Source: Alphaproteobacteria bacterium
Lineage (GTDB): Bacteria > Pseudomonadota > Alphaproteobacteria > Rhizobiales > JAKIUO01
Reading direction: 5' to 3'
NCBI GenBank assembly: GCA_024279115.1
Contig: JAJRRW010000015.1
Coordinates: forward strand, 1 to 37,622
Length of the DNA stretch: 37,622 nt
Below, piece after piece: positions 3,730 to 16,148 of the stretch. Numbering within the stretch: the first letter of the stretch is position 1; each line of letters opens with the position of its first letter. Made by a program: the position numbers and the translations under genes. A model generated the notes under the pieces. It worked only from the letters and a program-made list of their open reading frames with translations, was not told the DNA's origin and did no database searches.

Positions 3730-4212
3730 TTAAACGTCATCCTCTTCATCTAAAATTTTGCGGTATTCGACCATGGCTTTTTTCCAATAGATCCAGTGTT
3801 CGCGCGCTAACGATTTGCTGATAGAGTACTTTTTTGCAATAGCCTTTTTTATTTGTGTTTGAGCACCCTTCTTCTTTTCACCATTTCGTCTTCTTCGCAC
3901 AATTTCAGCCTCGAACTGTTCTTCGAAATCCTCTCCTACTACTAGCCAGTCACCTTTCGCCCTAGTATTATTTGCAGAGAGATATAGCTCATCAGATAGT
4001 GTCTTTATTTTTTCTTTCTGGGTTTCTTTCTCCATAGCAATTTCAATAGCATCAGCTAGAAATGTCGCCAACGGATCCGGTACGGGCACCCCATTTCTAA
4101 GTGGATCGATAGCGAGTTTAAGAAATTCCGCAGCATTTTCAGAACTAGTATGACAAAATCTAAATTTGTCATGAACCAATGCACTCGGTGGAGGGCTAAA
4201 TTTGGTATTCAT
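3730..4212 (-). CDS. Hypothetical protein translationally coupled to the integrase
   Basis: 160 aa with no domain I recognise. The start codon overlaps the integrase stop as ATGA (4209-4212), so it is very likely translated by coupling with the integrase and belongs to the same transcript. Residues about 55-130 are strongly charged, with a basic run (IVRRRRNGEKKKG) followed by KKAIAKKYSISKSLAREHW, which could be a helix-turn-helix (AIAKKYSISKSLAREH resembles a degenerate resolvase-type HTH). The acidic C-terminus ends in LDEEDDV. A DNA-binding accessory role in integration or excision is only a guess. Codon usage looks more A/T-rich than in the chromosomal genes to the right. Confidence 0.65.
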   Translation of the reverse strand: MNTKFSPPPSALVHDKFRFCHTSSENAAEFLKLAIDPLRNGVPVPDPLATFLADAIEIAMEKETQKEKIKTLSDELYLSANNTRAKGDWLVVGEDFEEQFEAEIVRRRRNGEKKKGAQTQIKKAIAKKYSISKSLAREHWIYWKKAMVEYRKILDEEDDV

Positions 4213-5414
4213 TGTCCGCTTCTCTTTTCGTTTTTGAGTTCGTCAAGATAATCCGCCCACGCCTGCATCATTTCTTTGCGTTGGGGAAGGAATTTGGTTC
4301 GGTTATAGGCTCGGCCATTTGGGTCTTTGACCGCATGGGATAGCTGGTGCTCGATCATGTCGGGACGGAAACCCAGTTCTTCATCGAGGATTGTTCTAGC
4401 CATAGCGCGAAAGCCGTGGGCGGTCATCTCGTCCTTGCTGATGCCGATCCGTCGCAGGGAGGCGTTGATAGTGTTTTCCGACATGGGCCGTTTCCAGGTG
4501 CGGATGCTTGGAAACATATAAGGATGGTTGCCGGTCAGGGGATGTAGATCCTCCAGAATGGCAACAGCCTGCTTTGATAGCGGCACGATATGTTTGACTT
4601 TGACCTTGGTGACAAAATAGCGCCATTCGGCTTTTTCCAGATCAATGTCCTTCCAGACAGCGTTGCGCAATTCACCAGGCCGGGCAAATACCAAGGGGGC
4701 AAATTTCAAAGCACATTGGATGGGAAAGAACCCCTCAAAGCTATCAATGGCCCGAAGCAGCTCCCCCACTTGCTTAGGTTCCGTGATGGCAGCAAAGTTG
4801 GTGCTGTTTGCTGGGGCCAGTGCGCCACGCAAATCTTGGGAAGGATCACGGACCGCCCTACCCGTTGCTATCGCATATCGAAAAACCTGACCGGCAACGC
4901 CCCTTGTGCGATGTGAGGAGATGATTGCTCCGCGCCTCTCAATCCGTCGCAAACAACTCAACAATGCCGGGGCATCCACATCTTCTACCGCCAGCCCGCC
5001 AATCCATGGGTAGAGGTCTTTTTCCAGCTGGCGCTTGACCCGATCAAGATGACCTTTTGACCAGGAAGGTGAAAAACGGTCGAACCATTCACGACCAATC
5101 ACTTCAAAACTGTTGGCCGCCCTGCCAGACTGCGAGGCCAGCACCGCCTTGTGATGATCTGATGGGTCAATACCATCAGCCAGCAATTCTCGCGCTGCCC
5201 GTCTTTTATCGCGCGCCTTTTTCAGGGAAACGTCCAGATAAGAACCAAAGGAAAGTTTCTTTTCCTTGCCCTCATAACGGTATTTAAATTTCCACAGCTT
5301 TGACCCCTTCGGCGTGACAAGAAGGTAAAGGCCGCGCTCATCCGCTTTTTTATAAGCCCTGTCACGAGGTTTCAGTTTTTTGATCGCAGTATCAGAAAGA
5401 GTCATCCAGTCCAT
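4209..5414 (-). CDS. P4-type tyrosine-recombinase integrase
   Basis: 401 aa, catalyses site-specific integration and excision at the adjacent tRNA-Ser. The N-terminus is the DUF4102 arm-binding domain (SDTAIKKLKPRDRAYKKADE, RGLYLLVTPKGSKLWKFKYR, LSFGSYLDVSLKKARDKR). The core-binding domain spans about 100-190. The catalytic domain contains ArgI in FARPGELRNAVW, the H-x-x-R pair in TAHGFRAMART, the third-position His in HQLSHAV, and the nucleophile Tyr in GRAYNRT, so it appears intact. Length is normal for the family. Two starts are possible: MDWMTLSD at 5414 or MTLSD at 5405, the latter matching typical family starts. It lies next to the 3' end of the tRNA, the usual arrangement for an integrase beside its attachment site. 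Confidence 0.95.
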   Translation of the reverse strand: MDWMTLSDTAIKKLKPRDRAYKKADERGLYLLVTPKGSKLWKFKYRYEGKEKKLSFGSYLDVSLKKARDKRRAARELLADGIDPSDHHKAVLASQSGRAANSFEVIGREWFDRFSPSWSKGHLDRVKRQLEKDLYPWIGGLAVEDVDAPALLSCLRRIERRGAIISSHRTRGVAGQVFRYAIATGRAVRDPSQDLRGALAPANSTNFAAITEPKQVGELLRAIDSFEGFFPIQCALKFAPLVFARPGELRNAVWKDIDLEKAEWRYFVTKVKVKHIVPLSKQAVAILEDLHPLTGNHPYMFPSIRTWKRPMSENTINASLRRIGISKDEMTAHGFRAMARTILDEELGFRPDMIEHQLSHAVKDPNGRAYNRTKFLPQRKEMMQAWADYLDELKNEKRSGQ

Positions 5415-5592
5415 CCCAAATCATCAATTTGGGGGCCTCCCCTACTCAGTTGATCATGAGGCCCCACAAATAGGCCCCCACGAGAGCCCGGTTTCTACCG
5501 GATGACAGTACGCCGTATCGGACTAAAATTCAAGACAACCCTTTATTTTATGGGACTTACCGGCCATTAGGGGATCATGGCGGATGGACGCA
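5415..5592. other. Attachment-site-proximal region of the element
   Basis: No gene between integrase and tRNA. The stretch holds repeated G/C-rich words (GGGGGCCTCCCC at about 5431, GAGGCCCCAC, TAGGCCCCCAC) and a duplicated CATGGCGGA immediately outside the tRNA 3' end (5577-5585 and 5591-5599). These may be integrase arm-binding repeats and part of the attachment core. No second copy of the tRNA 3' end is visible in 1-5400, so the distal junction is presumably left of the window. Confidence 0.35.
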
Positions 5593-5682
5593 TGGCGGAG
5601 AGAGAGGGATTCGAACCCTCGGAACGTTTGCACGCTCAACGGTTTTCGAGACCGCCCCATTCAACCACTCTGGCACCTCTCC
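5593..5682 (-). tRNA. tRNA-Ser (anticodon CGA)
   Basis: On the minus strand the gene starts GGAGAGGTGCCAGAGTGG and ends with acceptor strand TCTCTCC, discriminator G and an encoded CCA (5593-5595). The acceptor stem pairs over 7 bp with one G:U. The anticodon loop is CT-CGA-AA (anticodon at 5646-5648), reading UCG. There is a long variable arm (GAGCGTGCAAACGTTC), as expected for serine tRNA, and the T-arm GAGGG-TTCGAAT-CCCTC is perfect. Its 3' end faces the integrase, so it is the probable attachment site and was restored intact by the integrated element. Confidence 0.97.
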
Positions 5683-5786: not shown

Positions 5787-7307
5787 TCAGCGGGCCAAAT
5801 AATCCTTGTCAGCAAAGGCGGGGGGATAGATATGGCTTAACGGCAGCGAGGTGCCATTGCCCTGCGCCACGCGGCAATGACGGCGCAACAGGCTGCGAGG
5901 TTCCGGGACGCCGCAGGAGTGGGCGATGAGGCCGGTTCCATACTGGATTTTGCCAACATAATTCTTGACCCGCACGGCTTTGCGAGACGGGTCAAGACCT
6001 GATTGCAAGCGCTTTTTGTGGGTGGTGATGCCGGTCGGGCAGGTATTGCGATTGCATTTCAAGGCCTGAATACAGCCAAGCGCAAACATGAAACCGCGCG
6101 CCCCGTTGACCATATCGGCGCCCGCGCAATAGGCAAAGGCAACCTCGGCCGGTGTGATCAGTTTGCCGCTTGCGATGATCTTGATGCGGGGGCGCAAACC
6201 ATAGCGGGTGATCACGTCAACAACGGCGGGCAGTGCCTCCTTGACCGGCAGGCCAACATTGTCCATCAGCGGCATGGGAGCGGCACCGGTGCCGCCATCG
6301 CCGCCATCGACGGTGATGAAATCGGGGGCAAATTTTTCGCCGCGCGCATGAATACGCAGGCACAGATCTTCCAGCCATTCGACATCGGAAATAACCATTT
6401 TAAAGCCCACCGGTTTTTGCGAAAGCTCTTGCAGCTGGTTGATGAAATCTAGCAGTTGCTCATTATTATTGATCTCTGGATGGCGATTGGGGGAGATGGA
6501 TGGTTTGCCACGAGGGATGCCACGTATTTCGGCGATTTCTCGCGATACTTTGACACCGGGTAAAAGGCCTCCCTTGCCGGGCTTGGCCCCCTGGCTCATT
6601 TTTAGTTCGATCATCTTGACCTGCGGGCGCTCGACAATGGCCTTGAATTTTTCGATATTCAGCGACCCATCCTCATTGCGGACGCCATATTTGGCGGTGC
6701 CGATCTGAAAGACAATATCGCAATTCCCCACCAGATGATGAGACGACAGGCCCCCTTCTCCGGTATTGAGATAGATATTGGCGAGTTTGGCACCTTTCGA
6801 CAAAGCGCGGATGGCTGGCTTTGACAAGGCCCCGTAGCTCATCGCCGAGATGCCAATCAGCGCCGAGGTGGCATAGGGGTTTTTGCAACCAGCGCCAAAT
6901 ATCACCGGGTCGGCTGGGCGCGTCTCTTCGTCAAGTAGGGCATAAGGGGCATTGACAAAAATCGGCATGCCCGCATGGGACAGATTGCGCGTCGAACCAA
7001 AGGCAATGGTGGTGTCCGTGCCCGCCGATGACAGGGAAATCCAGCGCCTTTCAGCCCGGTTAAACGGCATTTCCTCGCGGTCCATGGCAAAGAAATATTG
7101 CCGGAAAAATTCTCCCAGATGTATGAACAGGCCGCGAAACCGCCCCATCACCGGGAAATTATGCCGCACCGCATCCTTGGTCTGCATGATGTCGATGATA
7201 AACAAGACAATAACAACCAGAACCGCAATGCCTACCAGCATCACAAAGATGGTCGACAGAACCGCCATCCCCTTCATTGTAAACAAGGATAAAATATTCA
7301 TTTCCAT
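5787..7307 (-). CDS. Membrane-anchored FMN-binding glutamate-synthase-domain protein (GltB2-like)
   Basis: 506 aa from the ATG of MEMNILSLF; a GGCGGA about 9 nt upstream decides the start (the longer reading from 7397 adds unlikely residues). One N-terminal TM segment (MAVLSTIFVMLVGIAVLVVI) anchors a large cytosolic TIM-barrel. The barrel is the FMN-binding glutamate-synthase central domain: ISAMSYGALSKPAIRALSKG, LNTGEGGLSSHH, MIELKMSQGAKPGKGGLLPG, FITVDGGDGGTGAAP, and the cysteine cluster CNRNTCPTGI that binds a 3Fe-4S cluster in GltB. The amidotransferase and C-terminal beta-helix domains of true GltB are absent, so it is a stand-alone redox flavoprotein of unknown substrate, not a complete glutamate synthase. 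No gltD-like partner is adjacent; a GltD-like protein lies 13 kb away at 20574. Confidence 0.88.
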   Translation of the reverse strand: MEMNILSLFTMKGMAVLSTIFVMLVGIAVLVVIVLFIIDIMQTKDAVRHNFPVMGRFRGLFIHLGEFFRQYFFAMDREEMPFNRAERRWISLSSAGTDTTIAFGSTRNLSHAGMPIFVNAPYALLDEETRPADPVIFGAGCKNPYATSALIGISAMSYGALSKPAIRALSKGAKLANIYLNTGEGGLSSHHLVGNCDIVFQIGTAKYGVRNEDGSLNIEKFKAIVERPQVKMIELKMSQGAKPGKGGLLPGVKVSREIAEIRGIPRGKPSISPNRHPEINNNEQLLDFINQLQELSQKPVGFKMVISDVEWLEDLCLRIHARGEKFAPDFITVDGGDGGTGAAPMPLMDNVGLPVKEALPAVVDVITRYGLRPRIKIIASGKLITPAEVAFAYCAGADMVNGARGFMFALGCIQALKCNRNTCPTGITTHKKRLQSGLDPSRKAVRVKNYVGKIQYGTGLIAHSCGVPEPRSLLRRHCRVAQGNGTSLPLSHIYPPAFADKDYLAR

Positions 7308-7404
7308 ATCTGCTGTTCCGCCCTGTTGGTTTATATGTCGCGCCCGATCAGTGTGTCGTATTGAACGATAGCGCCCAATGGCCCAACCGCAAGACAATTT
7401 ACAC

Positions 7405-8637
7405 TCACGGCTTTTCCCCGGTCAGATACCAGCATTCAATCTCTCCCTCGCCCTTGATCTGTTTGATCCCTGCTGGTTCAAATAAAAACCGCTCCTGGAG
7501 TTTTTGCTTCACATCAAGCGGTACCATCACGGCTCCCGTTTTTCCGTAGCTCTCCATGCGCGAGGCCACATTGACCGTTTGACCCCAAACATCGTAGCTG
7601 AATTTTTTGGTGCCAATGACCCCGGCCATTACACAGCCGCTGGCAAAGCCAATGCGGCACTCTATGGGTGCCCCGGCGCCGCTGGCGGATTTTTTTACGC
7701 AGGACTGGGCGGCCAACGCCATGCGGGCAATTTTGTGCAAATGATCCGCATCGGCCTGGGGCACGCCAGCTGCGATCATGTAAGCATCGCCAATGGTCTT
7801 GATTTTTTCGACCCCATGTTCGCTGACCAGCTCATCGAGCCCATTGAACAAGTTGCCCAAGAACTCAACGGTTCGCACCGGACCAAGCTGTCCGGCCAGC
7901 GTGGTGAAGCCAACCAGGTCGATAAACATCACCGAGGCTTCATCCACCCGGTTGGCAATCGCTTCGCCAGGGCGCTCCTTCAAGCGCTGGACAATGGAGG
8001 CGGGCAACACATTGTGCAACAGGCGGTCGACTTCTCGCTGAGCCTTGCGCGCCAGATAGTAGGCATAATAAACGCTGGCCGCGATCAATAGCACGGTGGT
8101 GATGCTGGCATTCACATAGATCAGATCAAGCGTGTGCTGGTCGATCTTCAACAATGCTCTTTGAGGGGGGTAGCCAAACCAGGAGACAAGATGCAAAACC
8201 AGCCCCAGCAAAACCAGCACCCCGACCAGCCACATACGCTTGAGACCCATAATAACAAAGGGAGCCGCCGCCAAAACCAGATATTGCAGATGAATACCGG
8301 CATCGCGACCAAGATAATGGGTCAATGCATAAAGAGCGATACATTCACAACCCGCCAGCCAAAGCCCCGCCGCTATCTCATGCACGCGATGCATAACCGG
8401 CACCAGCAGCGCCACCACCACCAGCCCCAGATTAATATTGATGACCGGCGCAAAATGGCGCGCATCAATCAACATATATTGCATGGCATAGGCAAAAGTC
8501 GCCACCGCGATAATATAGCTGACAAGGTTCAGCACACGAAGGCGTCGGCGTGTCTCTTCGTCATATTGCGAGGTACCGGCCGCCAGCAAACGCTCCAGAA
8601 TGAGCGCCAGCCGGCCCGACAAGCCCGTGGGCGCCAA
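7405..8637 (-). CDS. Six-TM membrane class III adenylate cyclase
   Basis: About 410 aa, predicted to make cAMP at the inner membrane. Residues 30-195 hold about six hydrophobic segments (VLNLVSYIIAVATFAYAM to ITTVLLIAASVYYAYYL), followed by a short linker (LLHNVLPASIVQRLKERPGE) typical of family III cyclases. The catalytic domain has both metal aspartates (FIDLVGFT and IKTIGDAYM), the base-recognising Lys in VEKIKTIGD and Asp in SYDVWGQ (ATP-type), and the transition-state Asn/Arg in VNVASRMES, so it should be active. The N-terminus is uncertain: no in-frame ATG exists. TTG at 8637 is used here, but AAGGGG at about 8661-8666 lies 6 nt before a CTG at 8655. It is divergent from a gene with a CRP site, and a CRP-type regulator lies 5.4 kb away. 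Confidence 0.92.
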   Translation of the reverse strand: MAPTGLSGRLALILERLLAAGTSQYDEETRRRLRVLNLVSYIIAVATFAYAMQYMLIDARHFAPVININLGLVVVALLVPVMHRVHEIAAGLWLAGCECIALYALTHYLGRDAGIHLQYLVLAAAPFVIMGLKRMWLVGVLVLLGLVLHLVSWFGYPPQRALLKIDQHTLDLIYVNASITTVLLIAASVYYAYYLARKAQREVDRLLHNVLPASIVQRLKERPGEAIANRVDEASVMFIDLVGFTTLAGQLGPVRTVEFLGNLFNGLDELVSEHGVEKIKTIGDAYMIAAGVPQADADHLHKIARMALAAQSCVKKSASGAGAPIECRIGFASGCVMAGVIGTKKFSYDVWGQTVNVASRMESYGKTGAVMVPLDVKQKLQERFLFEPAGIKQIKGEGEIECWYLTGEKP

Positions 8638-8709
8638 TTTGTCAATTATGGACAGTTTACGCCCCTTTTCATCCCATTTACGGTGATCATCGCGAAAACC
8701 GGACCTAAG

Positions 8710-8740
8710 GTCAGGACCTATATAATTAATGGGTCCTGAT
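8710..8740. promoter_or_regulatory. Inverted repeat in the cyclase/secreted-protein divergent region
   Basis: GTCAGGACC (8710-8718) and GGTCCTGAT (8732-8740) are inverted with 8-9 paired bases around a 13-nt A/T-rich spacer containing TATAAT (8721-8726). It lies between the cyclase start and the CRP site and could be an operator for either gene. No cognate regulator is evident. Confidence 0.4.
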
Positions 8741-8755
8741 CCTAAAAGAGCATTA

Positions 8756-8798
8756 TGTGATCGCCATCACACCCAGCCCCGCGCAACAAAGCTACCTT
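8756..8798 (+). promoter_or_regulatory. CRP site and class II promoter of the first small secreted protein
   Basis: TGTGATCGCCATCACA (8756-8771) is a perfect TGTGA-N6-TCACA CRP consensus. A TACCTT hexamer at 8793-8798 starts 29.5 bp from the site centre, so the centre falls near -41.5, the class II activation geometry. The same site, spacing and hexamer recur before the paralogue at 13261. The likely activator is the CRP-type protein at 14046-14738. Confidence 0.8.
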
Positions 8799-8851
8799 AT
8801 CCTTATCGAACACAACAGCAACCGCAACCATCTTAATAAGGAAACAGAAAA

Positions 8852-9106
8852 ATGTTCAAGAAATCAATCATGGCCCTCGCAATCGCAGCTGTCGTAACCG
8901 CCTCAATGGGGGGCGCCGCATCCGCCAAAGGCTGGAAAGGCGGGCATCACTGGGGCGGTCATTATAAGGGCCACCGCTATGTCAAAATTTATACACCGCG
9001 CCATTACACACCAAGCTGCCGCTACTACAAGAAAAAATGGAAATGGACTGGCTACAAATACTGGAAGAAAAAATATAAAGCCTGCCTGATCCTCAAAAAC
9101 TACTAG
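8852..9106 (+). CDS. Small secreted basic aromatic-rich protein, copy 1
   Basis: 84 aa. A clear Sec signal peptide (KKSIMALAIAAVVTASMGGA, cleavage after ASA) leaves a mature chain of about 60 residues dominated by K, Y, W, H and G: KGWKGGHHWGGHYKGH, then YVKIY, CRYYKKKWKWTGYKYWKKKY and KACLILKNY. Two cysteines could form one disulfide. I recognise no family. It is 75/84 identical to the protein at 13261. The ATG has AAGGA 9 nt upstream, and transcription is probably cAMP-CRP dependent (site 8756-8771). A periplasmic or surface role such as binding polyanions, polysaccharide or metal would fit the composition, but that is only inference. Confidence 0.85.
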   Translation: MFKKSIMALAIAAVVTASMGGAASAKGWKGGHHWGGHYKGHRYVKIYTPRHYTPSCRYYKKKWKWTGYKYWKKKYKACLILKNY

Positions 9107-9144
9107 TGGTCTAGCTCTTTTAAATTGAATGGTGTTTGCTATTT

Positions 9145-9276
9145 GCTCCCCGGACAAGCTTGAGGAGCAGTCGCGGCGAATGCGCAGCACCGGGGCAAAC
9201 AACGGGTCGTGCCGTGTAGCCACTAGACCCCGGCTCTGCGTTTGCTCGCCTTGGCTCCCGCATTTGTCCGGGGAGC
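9145..9276. repeat. MITE-like element with 13-bp perfect terminal inverted repeats
   Basis: GCTCCCCGGACAA (9145-9157) and TTGTCCGGGGAGC (9264-9276) are perfect 13-bp inverted ends of a 132-bp non-coding unit. Related G/C-rich words (CCCCGG, CCCGGGCTTG, GGCCCCGGCTC) occur at about 10110, 18145, 22580 and 32040-32115. No transposase is inside; a decayed mobile or palindromic intergenic repeat is the simplest reading. Confidence 0.55.
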
Positions 9277-9357
9277 CGACAGGGGCTACCTATAAAATGA
9301 GACAGATCGCATCGGCTGGATTGGCGGGTTTTTGCGCGTAACCAGAGAGGTGAAAAC

Positions 9358-10035
9358 CTAAAGCGTTCGCAAATAGTCCCGAAACTCCTTGCCTGATTCG
9401 CGCGCAAAATTATCACCGGTTTGTTTGACACTTTTTACCCGGTCAACGCGAAAATTGCGAAAATCATTTCGCCTTTCACACCACGCAGTCAGCAGCCATA
9501 CCTGATCAAACGCTGTAAGACCCAAAGGTCGAACAGTCCGATTGCTTACTCTGCCTTCGAGATCGCTATAAGATATTTGCAGCTTATTGCGTTCTCTAAG
9601 AGCAACCCGCAAGGGACTAAGGAAAGAGATTGAATTTCCCAACGTCTCATCTTGCACGGAACAAGCGAGGAGAGGGCTCCGTGCATGTCTGTCTTGATCA
9701 GTCTCGGACAGAACCGTATTGATCTTTGCGGATGCTCGAAGAGCCGCATCAGCCAGCGGGCCATCGCCGCGTGCTGCCACCAACCGCATGCCAAGAACCA
9801 CCGCATCGAGCTCATAGGCATCGAAATGAAGGGGCGGCAAAAAATAGCCCTTCTCGATCTGATAGCCAACACCGCCTTCGCCACGGATAGGTGCCCCCAT
9901 TGTCTGAAGTGTCACCATATCGCGATAAATGGTTCGCATGGATACATCCAGCTCATTGGCAAGCCGCTTTGCTGAAATGGGTTGTTGGACAATTCTTAGA
10001 CGATCCAGAATAGAAAATAGTCTGATCATGCGCAT
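9358..10035 (-). CDS. YafY-like HTH/WYL-domain transcriptional regulator
   Basis: About 225 aa. The N-terminal DeoR/HTH_11-type winged helix reads RLANELDVSMRTIYRDMVTL, then the wing GAPIRGEGGVGYQIEKGYFLPP. The C-terminal half is a WYL domain (ISYSDLEGRVSNRTVRPLGL, WLLTAWCERRNDFRNFRVDR), which usually senses a ligand. The longest ATG (10050) lies inside a perfect palindrome that is probably its operator, so a start at 10035 or 10029 (MRMIRLFSILD) is preferred; AGGGTGG precedes it. It is divergent from the ABM-like gene at 10280, the usual arrangement for YafY-type regulators that control a neighbouring enzyme and themselves. Confidence 0.9.
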   Translation of the reverse strand: MRMIRLFSILDRLRIVQQPISAKRLANELDVSMRTIYRDMVTLQTMGAPIRGEGGVGYQIEKGYFLPPLHFDAYELDAVVLGMRLVAARGDGPLADAALRASAKINTVLSETDQDRHARSPLLACSVQDETLGNSISFLSPLRVALRERNKLQISYSDLEGRVSNRTVRPLGLTAFDQVWLLTAWCERRNDFRNFRVDRVKSVKQTGDNFARESGKEFRDYLRTL

Positions 10036-10040
10036 GCACC

Positions 10041-10063
10041 ACCCTGACATGTGTTGTCAGGGT
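10041..10063. promoter_or_regulatory. Palindromic operator for the WYL regulator
   Basis: ACCCTGACA-TGTGT-TGTCAGGGT: 9-bp perfect arms around a 5-nt spacer, directly upstream of the regulator start and in the 245-bp divergent region with the gene at 10280. The symmetry fits a dimeric winged-helix protein and position suggests autoregulation. The target assignment is inferred from adjacency. Confidence 0.7.
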
Positions 10064-10279
10064 GTGTCTAGTATAGATAGTCTCTCGGCTTGCAAAACCA
10101 GCCTCCAGGGCTCGCCCCGGGACCAAGGACAAAAACAGGGAATTATATCGATAATACAAAGCATTACACAGGGTCTAGGATTGACGCCAACGCGTATCAG
10201 GCAAGCGTTGGTTTTCTAACCCAGACCCCGCGCCAGTAAACCTATTTAGCATCCAAAACCATGGAAAAGGAATGAAATA

Positions 10280-10609
10280 ATGGCTGAAACAATCACCGTC
10301 GAATGGGCTCCATTCGTAAAAGCGGCTGGAGTTGATATTGCGAAACTGATCGCAGCTGCGGACAAGGTAAACACTGAATTTCTATCAAAACAAAAAGGGT
10401 TTTTAAGGAGAGAACTGGTGAAAAAAAATGAGAACGAATTTGCCGATATTCTACATCGGCAATCCTTGGCAGATGCCAAATCCGCCAGTGAAAAAATCAG
10501 CGACTGTGCAGCAGCTGGAGCATATTTCAAGCTCATGGATGGCGAGAAAAGTGCCGTAGCTGGAGCTGGTTTCTCTTACTTCCAAATCGTGAAAAAATGG
10601 GCCCCATGA
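10280..10609 (+). CDS. Small ABM/NIPSNAP-like protein divergent from the WYL regulator
   Basis: 109 aa, cytosolic, no signal peptide. The layout ITVEWAPFVKAAGVDIAKLI, then VNTEFLSKQKGFLRRELVKK and FADILHRQSLADAKSASEKI, then a final beta-strand region (GAGFSYFQIVKKW), resembles the dimeric alpha/beta-barrel (ABM) fold, where the phrase about a residue pair followed by GFL-x-R-E-L is common. No catalytic residue can be assigned. GGAATG is just upstream of the ATG. The divergent WYL gene and the palindrome at 10041-10063 suggest it is the regulated target. The family call is tentative. Confidence 0.7.
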   Translation: MAETITVEWAPFVKAAGVDIAKLIAAADKVNTEFLSKQKGFLRRELVKKNENEFADILHRQSLADAKSASEKISDCAAAGAYFKLMDGEKSAVAGAGFSYFQIVKKWAP

Positions 10610-10730
10610 TCAAAGTGGATGGCTTCACTCCCCTGGTTAACCTCGCGGTATCATCCTTCATTTTCCAATATGGTGCCAGATACGCAACCAGGGGTATTTT
10701 CCCCCACCTGCACGATGCTCTAGCGCAAAT

Positions 10731-12296
10731 GTGAACAAAAAAACCGCGCCCCCCCTTGCTCCCCTCGCCCCTGCCATGAGACACCAGATCGTCATGGCAA
10801 AACAAATCGAACAAAATACCACTCTTGTGCTGGCTGGCTGGGCCGTCCTTGCGGGCAGCTTGTTGCTGACGGCGGCGTTGGCCATTCCTTTTTCAAATCA
10901 GTTTGGATATGACACCCGGGTCGTCGACATGCCCATCTGGACCCTGTTCCTGGTGCTGGCCTTTTTAGGCGCTTTGTTCGTCCTCATGCTGGCATTGATC
11001 GAAAAAACCGTGCGGCTGTTTGGCGGCCTTGAAAACCAGCGCCGCGCCCGCAAATTCTTGCGATTATTGCTGTTTGCCCTGTTCGCCACTGGCCTGCTGG
11101 CGCGCATTTTGATGTTGTTTACCCAGCCAATGCTGGAAGATGACTATCAACGCTATTTGTGGGACGGGGCGCTTAGCGCCAATGGCCACAATCCTTATCA
11201 GGTGTCACCCAAAGATGTATTTGATGGCACCAGCGGCGACCCTTCGCTGTAAAAGCTTGGACAACAATCGGGATTGCTGTTGGGACGGATCAATCATTCT
11301 GAACTGCGCACCATCTATCCCCCCGTGGCCCAGCTTGGCTTTGCCGTGAGTTATTGGATCAAACCTTTCAGCCTCAACGCCTGGCGGCTGATTGCTCTTG
11401 CTTGCGAACTTATTAGCCTTTGCTTGCTTGTTTTGTTGTTAAATGCCCTCAAGCGGCCGCTTCTTTGGGCGGCCATTTACTGGCTGAACCCGCTGGTCAT
11501 CAAGGAATTGATGAATGCCGGGCATATGGAAGTGCTGCTGGTGCCGTTGCTGCTGGGAGCCTTGTGGGCGGCCATGCGCCATTCGCACATACTCACCAGT
11601 TTCTTGCTGGCGCTGGCGGTTGGCGTCAAAATATGGCCGGCCCTGTTGGTACCACTCTATCTGCGCTCGGGTCTCACAACCCCCAAAAAGCTGATCGCCC
11701 CCCTGCTGATTTTTGGCGCGCTGATTGCCGTGATGGCGCTGCCGGTGCTGGTCGCCGGGCTTGACCAAGGCTCTGGTTTCGTTGCCTATGCGCAAAAATG
11801 GAAGACCAATAGCGCCTTGTTTCCAGCCCTTGAAGCTTCTATGCAAAACCTGTTTTCCCTGTTCTCATCCCATGCAGACGCGCCCGCAACCGGCTCTCTT
11901 GTTACACGGCTTCTCATCGCCGTAACGCTGGGGGCGATCGCACTGCTTGCAGCGTGGCGAAAACCCGCCAATGCGCAAGAGCTGGCGCGCAAAACATTGC
12001 TGATCACAACCGCCATGTTCCTGCTAAGCCCCGCTCAATTCCCGTGGTATGGCGTGTGGCTGATGCCGTTTCTGGTATTTTTGCCCTTTTATGGACTGGC
12101 TCTGCTGGTCCCGGCCTTGCAGGTCTATTACCTGTCGTTCTACTTTGCCTCCAACGAGATCGAATATCTCTATCCAACACTGGTTATCTGGTTGGCATGG
12201 GTGCCGGTCTGGCTGCTGCTTGCCTATGAATTGACACGCCGGTCACGCAAACATGCCAGAATATCGATTGATGACGCAAAGGGAGACACCTTATGA
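10731..12296 (+). pseudogene. GT-C (GT87/DUF2029-like) polyprenyl-linked glycosyltransferase interrupted by an in-frame TAA
   Basis: Two open stretches in one frame, 10731-11252 and 11253-12296, are separated only by TAA at 11250-11252 (CTG TAA AAG, codon 174). Together they give about 520 codons of one multi-spanning GT-C protein: QPMLEDDYQRYLWDGALSAN carries the acidic catalytic loop typical of the fold, continuing after the stop with RINHSELRTIYPPVAQLGFA, then many TM helices. The motif pair D-x-x-R-Y-x-W-D-G and INH-x-E-x-x-TIYPP is normally in one chain, so the stop is a lesion or a sequence error. The protein would transfer a sugar from a polyprenyl-phosphate donor in the membrane. Its end overlaps the GT2 gene as ATGA, suggesting the GT2 makes that donor. 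Start is uncertain (GTG 10731, ATG 10776 or 10794). Confidence 0.82.
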
Positions 12297-12997
12297 GAGC
12301 GGGTAGGAAAATAGAGGTGGTGATCCCTGCCCTCAATGAAGAGCGCGCCATTGGCAAAGTATTGCAAGACATCCCCGCCTTTGTCGATCGCATCATCGTT
12401 GGTGACAATGGCTCGCATGACCAGACCGTCAAACGGGCCCGCGATGGCGGCGCTACGGTAGTGATTGAAAAAGAGCGCGGCTATGGAGCCGCTTGCCTCA
12501 AAGCCCTCGAATTGTCGGACCCCGACGCCATCATCGTTTTTCTGGATGGCGATTATTCTGACTATCCGCAAGAAATGGCAACGCTGGTGGACCCCATTAT
12601 TGCAGGAGAGGCCAGGATGGTCATTGGCTCACGGGTCACTGGCACCGCCCAAAGCGGCGCCCTGACGCCGCCGCAAGTGTTTGGAAATGCCTTGGCCTGC
12701 TGGCTGATCAAGCTCATCTGGGGGATGAAATTCACCGATCTTGGCCCGTTCAGAGCGATTGATGGCAACGCCCTTGCGGAGCTTCACATGCAGGACCGGA
12801 ACTATGGCTGGACCGTTGAAATGCAAATCAAGGCCGCTCATGCCAAGCTTCCCTCCAGGGAAGTGCCCGTCAGCTACCGCAAAAGAATTGGCATATCGAA
12901 GGTATCTGGAACCATTAAGGGCAGTGTTCTGGCGGGATCAAAAATTCTTGGCCTGATCGCCAAATATAGCCTCGCACCACCGCGCTCAAAAAAATAG
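12293..12997 (+). CDS. GT2-family glycosyltransferase (polyprenyl-phosphate sugar synthase type)
   Basis: 234 aa, GT-A fold, cytosolic face of the membrane. N-terminal IEVVIPALNEERAIGKVL is the nucleotide-sugar binding start, IIVGDNGSHDQTVKRARDGG follows, and the DXD metal motif is FLDGDYSDYP. Later motifs VIGSRVTG, FGNALACWLIKLIWGMKFTDLGPFRAI and GWTVEMQIKAA are typical of dolichyl/undecaprenyl-phosphate glucosyl/mannosyl synthases. Unlike many relatives it lacks C-terminal TM helices. Its ATGA overlap with the GT-C gene means the two are cotranscribed and coupled: the GT2 would load a sugar onto the lipid carrier for the GT-C enzyme. The sugar and acceptor are unknown. Confidence 0.92.
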   Translation: MRAGRKIEVVIPALNEERAIGKVLQDIPAFVDRIIVGDNGSHDQTVKRARDGGATVVIEKERGYGAACLKALELSDPDAIIVFLDGDYSDYPQEMATLVDPIIAGEARMVIGSRVTGTAQSGALTPPQVFGNALACWLIKLIWGMKFTDLGPFRAIDGNALAELHMQDRNYGWTVEMQIKAAHAKLPSREVPVSYRKRIGISKVSGTIKGSVLAGSKILGLIAKYSLAPPRSKK

Positions 12998-13010
12998 AGC
13001 ACTCCTTGCC

Positions 13011-13057
13011 TAAACCAAAAGCGTGCTGCAAAGCTGGACATCTCAGCTTGTGGTTTG
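13011..13057. terminator. Nested hairpins downstream of the GT2 gene
   Basis: AAGCTG (13031-13036) pairs with CAGCTT (13044-13049) inside an outer pair TAAACCA/TGGTTTG (13011-13017, 13051-13057, one G:U). It is 14 bp after the GT2 stop and could end that transcript; the U-tract is poor, so this is uncertain. Confidence 0.35.
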
Positions 13058-13162
13058 GCGTGTTATGTTTGCTCGCCCCCGCCCCCAAACAACGGGCGCG
13101 CTGGGGTTACATTCCCCCCCATACCAGGCGAAATCTGATGGCCAATGGCCAAACACGCAAAG

Positions 13163-13205
13163 TGTGATGCACGTCACACCGGGCCGGTGTGGCCTGCGCT
13201 ACCTT
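13163..13205 (+). promoter_or_regulatory. CRP site and class II promoter of the second small secreted protein
   Basis: TGTGATGCACGTCACA (13163-13178) is a second perfect TGTGA-N6-TCACA. TACCTT lies at 13200-13205, again starting 29.5 bp from the site centre, and the following CTCCTTATCG nearly matches the first promoter. The N6 core differs between the copies (TCGCCA and TGCACG) while the contact bases are unchanged, indicating selection on the site. Confidence 0.82.
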
Positions 13206-13260
13206 CTCCTTATCGCAAATGACAAGAGCCTTAAACAAACCAACCGATCAGGAGAAGAAA

Positions 13261-13515
13261 ATGTTCAAGAAATCACTCATGGCCCTGGCCATCGCCGCAA
13301 TCGCAGCCGCTTCAATGGGGGGGGCCGCATCCGCCAAAGGCTGGAAAGGCAAACATCACTGGGGCGGTCACTATAAGGGCCACGGTTATGTCAAAATTTA
13401 TAAACCGCGCCATTACGCACCAAGCTGTCGCTACTACAAGAAAAAATGGAAATGGACCGGCTACAAATATTGGAAGAAAAAATATAAAGCCTGCCTGATC
13501 CTTAGAAATTACTAG
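13261..13515 (+). CDS. Small secreted basic aromatic-rich protein, copy 2
   Basis: 84 aa, paralogue of the protein at 8852 (nine differences, mostly in the signal peptide). The signal peptide MFKKSLMALAIAAIAAASMG with cleavage after ASA is followed by KGWKGKHHWGGHYKGHGY and the same K/Y/W-rich tail with two cysteines. The start is the ATG at 13261, preceded by AGGAGAAGAAA; longer in-frame readings from 13189 run into the promoter. A CRP site lies 83 bp upstream. Its copy is 4.4 kb away with other genes between, so this is a dispersed rather than tandem duplication. Function unknown; see copy 1. Confidence 0.88.
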   Translation: MFKKSLMALAIAAIAAASMGGAASAKGWKGKHHWGGHYKGHGYVKIYKPRHYAPSCRYYKKKWKWTGYKYWKKKYKACLILRNY

Positions 13516-13563
13516 ACTTCCTCCCTGCAGGCAGCCTCTCGTCTCAATCGAGGGGTTGTCGGC

Positions 13564-14037
13564 ATGACATCAAGCTTTTTCAACGAGACCACGTACCATA
13601 TGATCACCCCGACGAGCCTCGCACCGACCAGCGGCGATCCCTTTGCACCCGAAATCATCCTGCTCATCAGTTTGGGCTATTTCTTTGCCAAGCATTTTCT
13701 GGGCGACTTTGTTTTGCAAAATAGCTACCAGCTGACCAACAAGGTTCGCTATGGCCACCCGGGCGGTGTGCTGCACGCCGCTATCCACGGGATGTTGAGC
13801 CTGCCACTTATATTATTGCTACCTGGTATTCACCTGGGCTGGTATGCCCTGCTCATCTTGGCGGAAGTCATTGCTCACTATCATATCGACTGGGGCAAAG
13901 AGCAGCTTTTACAAAAGACCCGGTGGACCACCAACCAATACCAATATTGGCGGTTATTCGGGTTCGACCAGTTTTTACATCTGAGCTGCTATCTCATAAT
14001 GGCCGCGCTGATTGTCGCGCTATATCACGCCGTTTAA
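13564..14037 (+). CDS. DUF3307 membrane protein
   Basis: 157 aa, four hydrophobic segments. The DUF3307 signature is clear: FFAKHFLGDFVLQNSYQLTN, then GGVLHAAIHGMLSLPLILLL, EVIAHYHIDWGKEQL, and a C-terminal FDQFLHLSCYLIM. The conserved His and Asp residues (H in KHFLGDF, HAAIH, HYHID and DQFLH) could line a metal site. Function of the family is not established. GAGGGG lies 9 nt before the ATG. It follows the second CRP-controlled gene by 48 bp with no obvious terminator, so it may be read through from that promoter, and it converges on the CRP-type gene with only 8 bp between stops. Confidence 0.85.
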   Translation: MTSSFFNETTYHMITPTSLAPTSGDPFAPEIILLISLGYFFAKHFLGDFVLQNSYQLTNKVRYGHPGGVLHAAIHGMLSLPLILLLPGIHLGWYALLILAEVIAHYHIDWGKEQLLQKTRWTTNQYQYWRLFGFDQFLHLSCYLIMAALIVALYHAV

Positions 14038-14045
14038 GCGCGCGC

Positions 14046-14738
14046 TCACGTAAGATCGCGTAACAGCTGCGGTTTTTCGATACAGTAATAGCCGGAAATT
14101 TTGCTTAAAATGCCCTTGCGGCACCATTGATTGAGCTGGCGTGAGACGTTTTCGCGCGCCGCCCCTACCATGTCGCCAAGGTCCGACTGGGTGAATTTGT
14201 GAAAAATCATCACGCGCTCGCCATCCAGCGGGTTTCCAAATCCGTCCGCCAGGCGTAAGAGCGTATGAGCAAGGCGGCCATCCAGACCCATGCTTTGGCG
14301 GATCTGAAAGCAATCATTGGTGATACGCAGCCGCTTGGCGACAATACGCAGCAAATGGCGGTAAATCTGCGGGTGCTGGCCAGCAATCTCAAAAAACGCC
14401 GAACTGGACAAAAAAGCCAGCTTTGTTTCCTTGAGGGCTGTGATATTTGCAGAACGCGGGGCGTCATCGATCAAGCCCATTTCACCCAGTATATCCGAGC
14501 TGCCAAGGGCTGCCAGAATAGTTTCTTCGCCCTCGATACCGATGACCGACACCTTCAAGGTGCCCTCCAGAACACAATAACAGCCATCTGGTTCATCATC
14601 TTGCAAAAACAATGTTTCATTGCGCTTCAAGGACACCGGGCGCATCACCCCCGCCAGCTTCTCCAGCGTCCCTTCCTCCAGCCCCTCGAACAGCACCGAG
14701 TTCTTCAAGCTCTGCTTGACGATCATTTCAAACGGCAT
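14046..14738 (-). CDS. CRP-type cAMP-responsive transcriptional regulator
   Basis: 230 aa from ATG 14738, preceded by AGGGGAA. The cyclic-nucleotide domain (about 15-125) keeps the phosphate-binding cassette: SSDILGEMGLIDDAPRSANI has the Gly-Glu, hydrophobic-Leu and Arg-Ser pattern of cAMP-binding CRP proteins. The C-terminal winged helix (KFTQSDLGDMVGAARENVSR, then QLNQW) has Arg-Glu-x-x-x-Arg at the recognition positions, as E. coli CRP does (RETVGR), predicting TGTGA contacts. It lacks the N-terminal cysteines of FNR. A cyclase gene and two perfect CRP sites lie within 7 kb, so this is the probable regulator of both. It could also be a global CRP; the gene itself shows no consensus site upstream. 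Confidence 0.92.
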   Translation of the reverse strand: MPFEMIVKQSLKNSVLFEGLEEGTLEKLAGVMRPVSLKRNETLFLQDDEPDGCYCVLEGTLKVSVIGIEGEETILAALGSSDILGEMGLIDDAPRSANITALKETKLAFLSSSAFFEIAGQHPQIYRHLLRIVAKRLRITNDCFQIRQSMGLDGRLAHTLLRLADGFGNPLDGERVMIFHKFTQSDLGDMVGAARENVSRQLNQWCRKGILSKISGYYCIEKPQLLRDLT

Positions 14739-14921
14739 TTGTTTCCCCTGTGCACAGCTCAATCACCGCGAATATCAACAGTCCAAGTTGAATGTTGCCT
14801 ATTGGCGCGCGGCGCGCTACATGTTTTTCAATTGATTTGACCTGATTTTCGACCTGATTGCCCTCTTGTATTGCGTGAAGAGGGCTTTGGGGGCTGGAAC
14901 AAGAGCGAGATTTAACCGACC

Positions 14922-15218
14922 ATGAATGCAATAATCTATCTGATCGTCGCAATCCTCGACATAACATGGTGGTTCATCATCATCGGTGTTGTCATGAGCT
15001 GGCTGGTGGCCTTCAATGTCATCAATTTGCAAAACCAGTTCGTTTACAGTGTCTATTCGACCCTCAATGGCATCGTTGAACCGATGCTCAAACCGATCCG
15101 CCGATTTATACCGAATATGGGCGGCATTGATATTTCCCCCATCGTGCTGCTATTGGCCATCAGCTTCTTGCGGATTTTCGTCGTCAGCGATCTGGCCCCG
15201 CGATTGCTCGCCAATTAG
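14922..15218 (+). CDS. YggT-family membrane protein
   Basis: 98 aa, two TM regions (LIVAILDITWWFIIIGVVMS and IVLLLAISFLRIFVV) flanking the family signature NGIVEPMLKPIRRFIPNMGG, ending in IDISPIVLLL. YggT proteins are linked to cell shape, division or osmotic tolerance; the exact role is unsettled. Length is standard. It is followed by folD after 60 bp on the same strand, an association seen in alphaproteobacteria, so they may be cotranscribed. Confidence 0.93.
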   Translation: MNAIIYLIVAILDITWWFIIIGVVMSWLVAFNVINLQNQFVYSVYSTLNGIVEPMLKPIRRFIPNMGGIDISPIVLLLAISFLRIFVVSDLAPRLLAN

Positions 15219-15278
15219 GGTCGCTCATTCCACCATGTGCGACCATTCTCTTCAAGCCAACGCCTCGGGGAGCGAGAC

Positions 15279-16148
15279 ATGACACAAGCACAACTCATTG
15301 ATGGCAAGGCCATCGCCCTTCAACTTCGCAAGAAAATTGGCGAAGAAACCGACGCACTGATCAAACAACATGGGATAAAACCCGGCCTGGCCGTTGTGTT
15401 GGTGGGAGAAGACCCGGCCAGCAGCGTCTATGTGCGCAATAAGGGCATCGCCACCAAAAAAGCCGGTATGGAAAGTTTCACCCACCAATTGCCAAGCGAC
15501 ACGAGCCAACAGGACCTGCTGCGTTTGGTGGAACAACTCAATCAAGATGCGCGCGTCCATGGCATTTTGGTGCAACTGCCATTGCCCAAACAAATAGATG
15601 CTGACAAGGTGCTGTGCGCCATTGATCCCGACAAGGATGTGGACGGCTTTCACCCTATTAATGCCGGGCGCTTGATGACCGGCCAACCCGGCCCTGTGCC
15701 GTGCACGCCAAAGGGCTGCATTGTGCTTGCCAAATCTGTCCGCGCCGATTTGACCGGCCTTGAAGCGGTGGTGGTGGGACGCTCCAATATTGTCGGCAAG
15801 CCGGTGGCCCAATTGCTGCTCAATGAAAATTGCACGGTGACCATTGCTCACTCGCGCACCAAAGATCTGGCCAGCGTGGTGCGCCGCGCCGATCTGGTGG
15901 TGGCCGCCGTTGGCCTACCGCAATTTATTCGCGGCGACTGGATCAAACCAGGTGCCTGCATCATTGATGTGGGGATCAATCGCCTTGAGCTTGAGGATGG
16001 CAAAACAAGGCTGGTGGGCGATGTCGCCTTCGATGAAGCCCGTCTTGTCGCTGGCTCTATCACACCAGTACCGGGCGGCGTTGGCCCCATGACCATCGCC
16101 ATGCTGTTGTCAAATACACTGGATGCTGCCAAACGGCCGATTACCTGA
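15279..16148 (+). CDS. folD: Bifunctional methylenetetrahydrofolate dehydrogenase / methenyltetrahydrofolate cyclohydrolase
   Basis: 289 aa, cytosolic. Interconverts 5,10-methylene-, 5,10-methenyl- and 10-formyl-tetrahydrofolate with NADP. Family motifs are all present: [17 protein letters not shown] with the catalytic Tyr and Lys, [34 protein letters not shown], the Rossmann segment [18 protein letters not shown], and [17 protein letters not shown] near the C-terminus. The ATG at 15279 is preceded by GGGGAG at 8 nt; the longer reading from 15237 is not needed. Length is normal (about 285-300). Confidence 0.98.

Follow-up and report, generated by a model that had tools for sequence, protein, structure and literature searches.

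In a 37,622-nucleotide stretch of alphaproteobacterial DNA (contig JAJRRW010000015.1 of assembly GCA_024279115.1, order Rhizobiales; hereafter the window), a membrane-bound class III adenylate cyclase, a CRP-type regulator and two genes for small secreted proteins, each behind a perfect TGTGA-N6-TCACA box, probably form a local cyclic AMP (cAMP) switch. The window is the entire contig C19 of a metagenome genome (G000) of 2.83 Mb, 98% complete in 145 contigs. The parts and their integrity, the box positions, the −10 spacing and the co-conservation are all seen in the sequences themselves. On the proposed mechanism, the membrane cyclase would sense a signal and make cAMP, which would bind the neighboring CRP, and the CRP-cAMP complex would then bind the perfect boxes, centered at −41.5, and activate transcription as at class II promoters, the products being small, very basic proteins that are presumably secreted. 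The features on which this proposal is built are the following:

7405..8637, minus strand: membrane class III adenylate cyclase (MASE7 and Guanylate_cyc), 410 residues, TTG start (Pfam, 7yzi match)
8756..8771, no strand: perfect TGTGA-N6-TCACA box in the divergent gap between the cyclase gene and small gene 1 (pattern search)
8793..8798, plus strand: −10-like hexamer TACCTT at class II spacing, small gene 1
8852..9106, plus strand: small secreted protein 1, 84 residues, signal peptide by eye
13163..13178, no strand: perfect TGTGA-N6-TCACA box upstream of small gene 2 (pattern search)
13200..13205, plus strand: −10-like hexamer TACCTT at class II spacing, small gene 2
13261..13515, plus strand: small secreted protein 2, 84 residues, 89% identical to protein 1
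14046..14738, minus strand: CRP-type regulator, 230 residues, cAMP-pocket residues and R-E-x-x-x-R helix (Pfam, Crp/Fnr comparison)

Cyclase, regulator and small proteins

A first-pass annotation, made from the letters alone, had proposed that these elements make up a local cAMP circuit, with an apparently intact class III cyclase, a CRP-type regulator with a CRP-like recognition helix, and two 84-residue secreted paralogues behind perfect boxes, and each of these parts is borne out. The cyclase matches MASE7 (E = 3.1e-39, 135.1 bits against a curated cut-off of 26.2) and Guanylate_cyc (E = 1.2e-51, 175.4 bits against 21.9), and the solved adenylate cyclase 7yzi matches its residues 19-409, membrane domain included, at E = 1e-72. 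It retains D240, K280, D284, D349, N356 and R360, which we take to be the catalytic and metal-binding positions. The genome's one other Guanylate_cyc match has both metal-binding Asp positions substituted in a pairwise alignment, and the window cyclase appears to be the sole intact enzyme found in a search that covered class III only. This second cyclase (L011/L022, contig C23 of the same genome) shares its contig with two membrane-type cyclic nucleotide monophosphate (cNMP)-binding proteins. For MASE7, alone or with adenylate cyclase, we found nothing in the open-licence literature, which makes for a weak absence.

The regulator matches cNMP_binding (E = 7e-21) and HTH_Crp_2 (E = 8e-15) and carries the pocket set G85 E86, R95 S96 and T140 together with the helix ARENVSR (i.e., R-E-x-x-x-R), residues to which we assign the pocket and recognition-helix roles. 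Among the nine cNMP-domain proteins of the genome it alone combines the two; four of the others are channel-like or lack a C-terminal DNA-binding region (by eye), and the window protein appears to be the sole cAMP-type CRP found in the genome. The remaining four are Crp/Fnr-type proteins with a C-terminal helix-turn-helix region (by eye), and they raise the alternative that one of them uses the boxes and that the CRP and cyclase of the window have another function. On alignment, however, the R-E-x-x-x-R helix and the complete pocket set are each absent from all four, and in one genome of another family (G028) the CRP, cyclase, box and small gene form a single row; we regard this alternative as highly improbable. 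G85, E86, R95 and S96 are named for the Sinorhizobium meliloti regulator Clr as well (PMC10127613).

The mature small proteins, 59 residues long, contain 17-18 Lys/Arg, 0 Asp/Glu, 5 His and 15 Tyr/Trp (pI 10.2), and their architecture comprises a signal peptide (by eye), a His/Tyr/Gly-rich stretch and a predicted two-Cys helical hairpin. In a 20-row alignment the invariant residues are a pair of Ala where cleavage is likely, both Cys, and the Gly in a TG turn. The AlphaFold model is poor overall (pLDDT 60.3, pTM 0.35), with a C-terminal hairpin (helices 56-66 and 69-83, one Cys in each) that scores well. Neither window protein matches any Pfam or NCBIfam model, and comparing the 20 aligned members with Pfam up to E = 10 yielded seven single-member weak matches (best E 0.11), on which a known family was rejected. 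The genome encodes four members, two in the window and two on contig C130.

Placement and spacing of the boxes

With equal base use, ∼0.04 perfect boxes would be expected per 37.6 kb. Genome-wide the perfect pattern occurs three times and its reversed control not at all, and three is roughly the chance number for a genome of 2.83 Mb. Their placement is far beyond chance, since all three sit just upstream of genes of the four-member family: three random sites would all fall in the 150-bp upstream stretches of four genes with p ∼1e-11 (600 bp of 2.83 Mb, cubed). Looser boxes, with 0 to 2 mismatches, are no commoner in the window than expected (7, both perfect ones included, vs 12.2). The third perfect box (C130:30275) lies upstream of a paralogue (35% identical), and in the 280 bp upstream of the fourth member, just before the third, no box is found even when two mismatches are allowed. 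This locus (L021, 5938-6655), a tandem of two distant members with the perfect box between them, recurs in the related genomes G002 and G003. The annotation's two local targets are thus both boxed, as claimed, but they are not the only ones, given the C130 paralogue and, in relatives, the RTX proteins described below.

The box ends 80 bp before the ATG of small gene 1 and 82 bp before that of small gene 2. When a box is centered at −41.5, the −10 hexamer starts 37 bp after its first base; TACCTT is found at exactly this offset in both window genes and TATCGT in the C130 gene. Among the 90 oriented boxes with at most one mismatch (45 places in the genome), TAnnnT occurs at the exact offset behind the three perfect boxes only, the one-mismatch boxes giving 0 of 84 (42 places; background 0.7%). 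Seven genomes together have 13 boxes upstream of family genes (11 perfect and 2 one-mismatch boxes). Of these, 12 have a fitting hexamer, the exception being in G006; ten of the 13 belong to two loci conserved within a single genus and hence are not independent. The boxes therefore appear to be placed as at class II promoters, with a center at −41.5 and a matching −10.

These counts also bear on a broader explanation. CRP is a textbook global regulator, and the window CRP may be an ordinary one, acting through many degenerate or class I sites, with the small genes as its best-matching targets and their proximity incidental. Sites with at most one mismatch do exceed the reversed control in the window genome (45 vs 13 places, perfect ones included), and in relatives perfect boxes also stand before RTX genes, other genes or no clear gene. 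It should be noted that the genome-wide counts cover boxes with at most one mismatch, class I sites and sites with two or more mismatches lying outside them. Against this explanation, none of the 84 oriented one-mismatch boxes has the class II hexamer at the exact spacing, and relatives keep the arrangement, which in another family is compact. We consider a global role doubtful, though it is the most serious of the alternatives.

Conservation in relatives and the case against

The relatives compared include four other genomes of the same genus (G001-G004) and G028, of another family. Three of the four same-genus genomes (G001-G003) retain the order cyclase, glycosyltransferases, DUF3307 gene and CRP, and every small gene present at the locus has a perfect box upstream. 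In G028 the whole unit is tighter: a CRP (50% identical), a cyclase (52%), a perfect box and a small gene lie in one row on one strand. Of 297 genomes sampled from the order, MASE7 is found in 66 and the small family in 39, the two together in 26 as compared with ∼9 expected (Fisher 1e-10, phylogeny ignored; six of the 26 are genomes of family f33 with a weak match). The annotation would have been refuted by a neighborhood conserved in no relative; it is conserved, and together with the spaced −10-like hexamers and the apparently sole intact cyclase and CRP this argues for the proposed local switch.

Neighborhoods were viewed for 45 of the 68 MASE7 matches (5 plus 40 fetched; 23 were left out), some stretches ending at contig ends. 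At 21 of the 45 loci the cyclase has a CRP-family gene no more than 6 kb away (four f1, G028, 12 f2, one f13, one f33 and two f19), and the cyclase, a close CRP relative, a small-family gene and a perfect box occur together at five. In f2 the MASE7 cyclase directly adjoins the CRP-family gene at all 12 loci fetched (L093, L096-L100, L105, L109, L111-L114). The three f2 CRPs aligned, of the 12, have the helix R-P-K-x-N, not R-E-x-x-x-R; because Clr-like proteins have this helix too, another box is expected there, and no perfect TGTGA box was found in the 12 f2 stretches. In f33, the single CRP found beside a cyclase reads R-E-V-V-S-R, and a small basic secreted protein is encoded in six genomes, lying beside the cyclase behind a perfect box in four (G036, G079, G136 and G204), behind a one-mismatch box in G110 and without a box in G183. 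The f33 proteins match the family profile weakly and so are not counted as members, the boxed gene beside the G136 cyclase having been found through its box, not through the profile.

A search of genome contigs for the CRP itself gave seven loci, four of which (L056-L058 and L061) match the contigs of G001, G002, G003 and G028. Of the other three, L059, from a genome labeled Rhodobiaceae, pairs a CHASE2 cyclase with an adjoining CRP that shares 59% identity with that of the window, which may hint at an exchange of regulators and cyclases; L060 (5 kb) and L062 have no cyclase match. No small-family match at E 0.1 is present in any of the three, and L062 has a perfect box. A FecR-like label considered for a protein at L059 was dropped, Pfam giving no match.

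Perfect boxes were searched for in 12 genomes and found in 11 (none in G049), the reversed pattern giving 0 to 3 places per genome. The fractions standing before family genes are 3/3 in G000, 2/7 in G001, 2/10 in G002, 3/10 in G003, 1/2 in G028, 0/2 in G004 and 0/2 in G006. Among the other targets are RTX repeat proteins, called by eye with one of all confirmed by Pfam:

L202 (boxes 2007, 3787), L203 (boxes 2008, 3688), L218, L221: perfect box and class II hexamer before RTX repeat proteins, two families

In f33, RTX-like proteins (by eye) stand behind boxes in G036 and G136, one of the two in G136 lacking the hexamer. An RTX query against the window's genome matched inside one 5960-codon frame only (E 1e-20). 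On these counts a dedicated switch fits the window genome best; in relatives the theme of the boxes seems to be secreted proteins more widely, together with boxes before no clear gene.

Several observations weigh against a local switch aimed at the small proteins. Perfect boxes elsewhere than before family genes make up 5 of 7 in G001, 8 of 10 in G002 and 7 of 10 in G003, and in G002 and G003 two perfect boxes each, with TAnnnT at the class II offset, precede RTX repeat proteins. A box with at most one mismatch lies upstream of only 11 of the 32 family proteins listed (four of the 11 from the diverged f33 set), or 7 of 27 once the five f33 rows are removed; most members being boxless, the family is wider than the box. 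The boxed C130 paralogue has its natural start 80 bp past the box, in a frame other than that of the remainder (a frameshift), which indicates a broken copy or an assembly error. The G002 locus lacks small gene 1 while a one-mismatch box remains, and G004 (same genus, 88% complete) has no MASE7 match and a single family member without a box. Two one-mismatch boxes have the hexamer one base further than the class II offset.

With these points included, we still think the local switch likely on the comparative evidence. A stronger version is possible, although we lean against it: the cAMP-CRP pathway of this genome may have shrunk to a dedicated switch, with the same design in at least one more family, f33. 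Such a switch might have a single intact cyclase and a single CRP, and its direct class II targets might all belong to one undescribed family of cationic secreted hairpin proteins; we are similarly hesitant about that composition. The f33 version, proposed with like reserve, could comprise a MASE7 cyclase, an R-E-x-x-x-R CRP, a TGTGA box and a diverged small basic protein, plus RTX proteins.

Possible output, neighbors and known systems

What the small proteins do can be guessed at. Their charge and likely secretion, the boxes before acidic RTX proteins in relatives, the glycosyltransferase neighbors and the control of succinoglycan and motility by Clr reported in PMC5498481 suggest, tentatively, as their most likely role that of cationic components of the envelope or matrix, made when the cells turn to surface life, a guess that we would rather doubt than trust. 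They might instead be antimicrobial or toxic peptides under cAMP control, for which a 59-residue mature part with 17-18 Lys/Arg and 0 Asp/Glu, two Cys and a predicted helical hairpin would be suitable; yet no recognized immunity or export gene is among the conserved neighbors listed, the proteins are without any family match, and boxes of the same type precede acidic RTX proteins in relatives, and we judge the peptide explanation less probable still. A CRP-binding site combined with a small secreted protein was not found in the open-licence literature, again a weak absence.

Between the small genes lie further conserved neighbors, for which membership of the putative circuit is not claimed:

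10731..12997, plus strand: GT87-type and GT2 glycosyltransferase genes (Pfam), in the same order in three same-genus genomes

The GT87-type frame (10731-12296, plus strand) is interrupted by an in-frame stop codon once 173 codons have been read, and the three same-genus relatives compared keep this frame open; the break is either real or an assembly error. Farther left, within 4209-5682, an integrase-like frame of 401 residues (by eye) adjoins a tRNA-Ser gene (5593-5682), and the left contig end may therefore belong to an integrated element. No known RNA family reaches its gathering score in 7000-15300.

If the local switch is real, it offers a compact, testable case of cAMP signaling becoming local, in which a usually global regulator may serve mainly one secreted-protein family, and small two-Cys basic proteins without a Pfam or NCBIfam model gain a regulatory context.

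Each element resembles a known system in part. At class II promoters, E. coli CRP, with its R-E-x-x-x-R helix, acts from a TGTGA-N6-TCACA box at −41.5; the window shares the box, the helix and the −10 spacing for a box at −41.5 and differs in that the predicted perfect-box regulon of its genome is one small-protein family. The cyclase matches 7yzi, a six-transmembrane cyclase of the Rv1625c type, over its full length, including the membrane domain. Rv1625c is under fatty-acid control, according to PMC12505454. CyaC of S. meliloti, described in PMC10463352 as di-heme, quinone-responsive and linked with Clr and the TetR-type CycR, is likewise a six-transmembrane cyclase tied to a CRP-type regulator. 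A CyaC-like di-heme sensor is unsupported here, one membrane-domain His being near-invariant among 44 MASE7 relatives (41/44) and the next reaching 31/44.

The closest known design is the S. meliloti clr-cyaD1-smc02177-smc02178 cluster, in which, according to PMC5498481, a CRP-type regulator, a membrane cyclase and a box-bearing secreted or periplasmic target lie close together, as do their counterparts in the window; in PMC10127613, 8 of 20 confirmed Clr targets are reported as small proteins and many Clr targets as having signal peptides. A Sinorhizobium-like locus (L155), whose Clr is 83% identical to that of S. meliloti, stood in for the S. meliloti locus and contains Clr, a CHASE2 cyclase, a FecR protein and, behind TGTT-N8-AACA, a Sel1-repeat protein. 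The parts differ: the L155 cyclase has CHASE2 whereas that of the window has MASE7, Clr is 27% identical to the window CRP and reads R-P-K-x-x-R in place of R-E-x-x-x-R, and its box is TGTT-N8-AACA as against TGTGA-N6-TCACA. Homology of the small family to SMc02178 was ruled out on the syntenic L155 protein, a 286-residue Sel1-repeat protein. The annotation had known of no described system built around the small family; that stands as far as the target goes, SMc02178 being unrelated, but the same design has been described in clr-cyaD1-smc02178. On our analysis the window version would work alike while being built from other parts, and the Sinorhizobium clr-cyaD1 layout may thus have counterparts made of different components.

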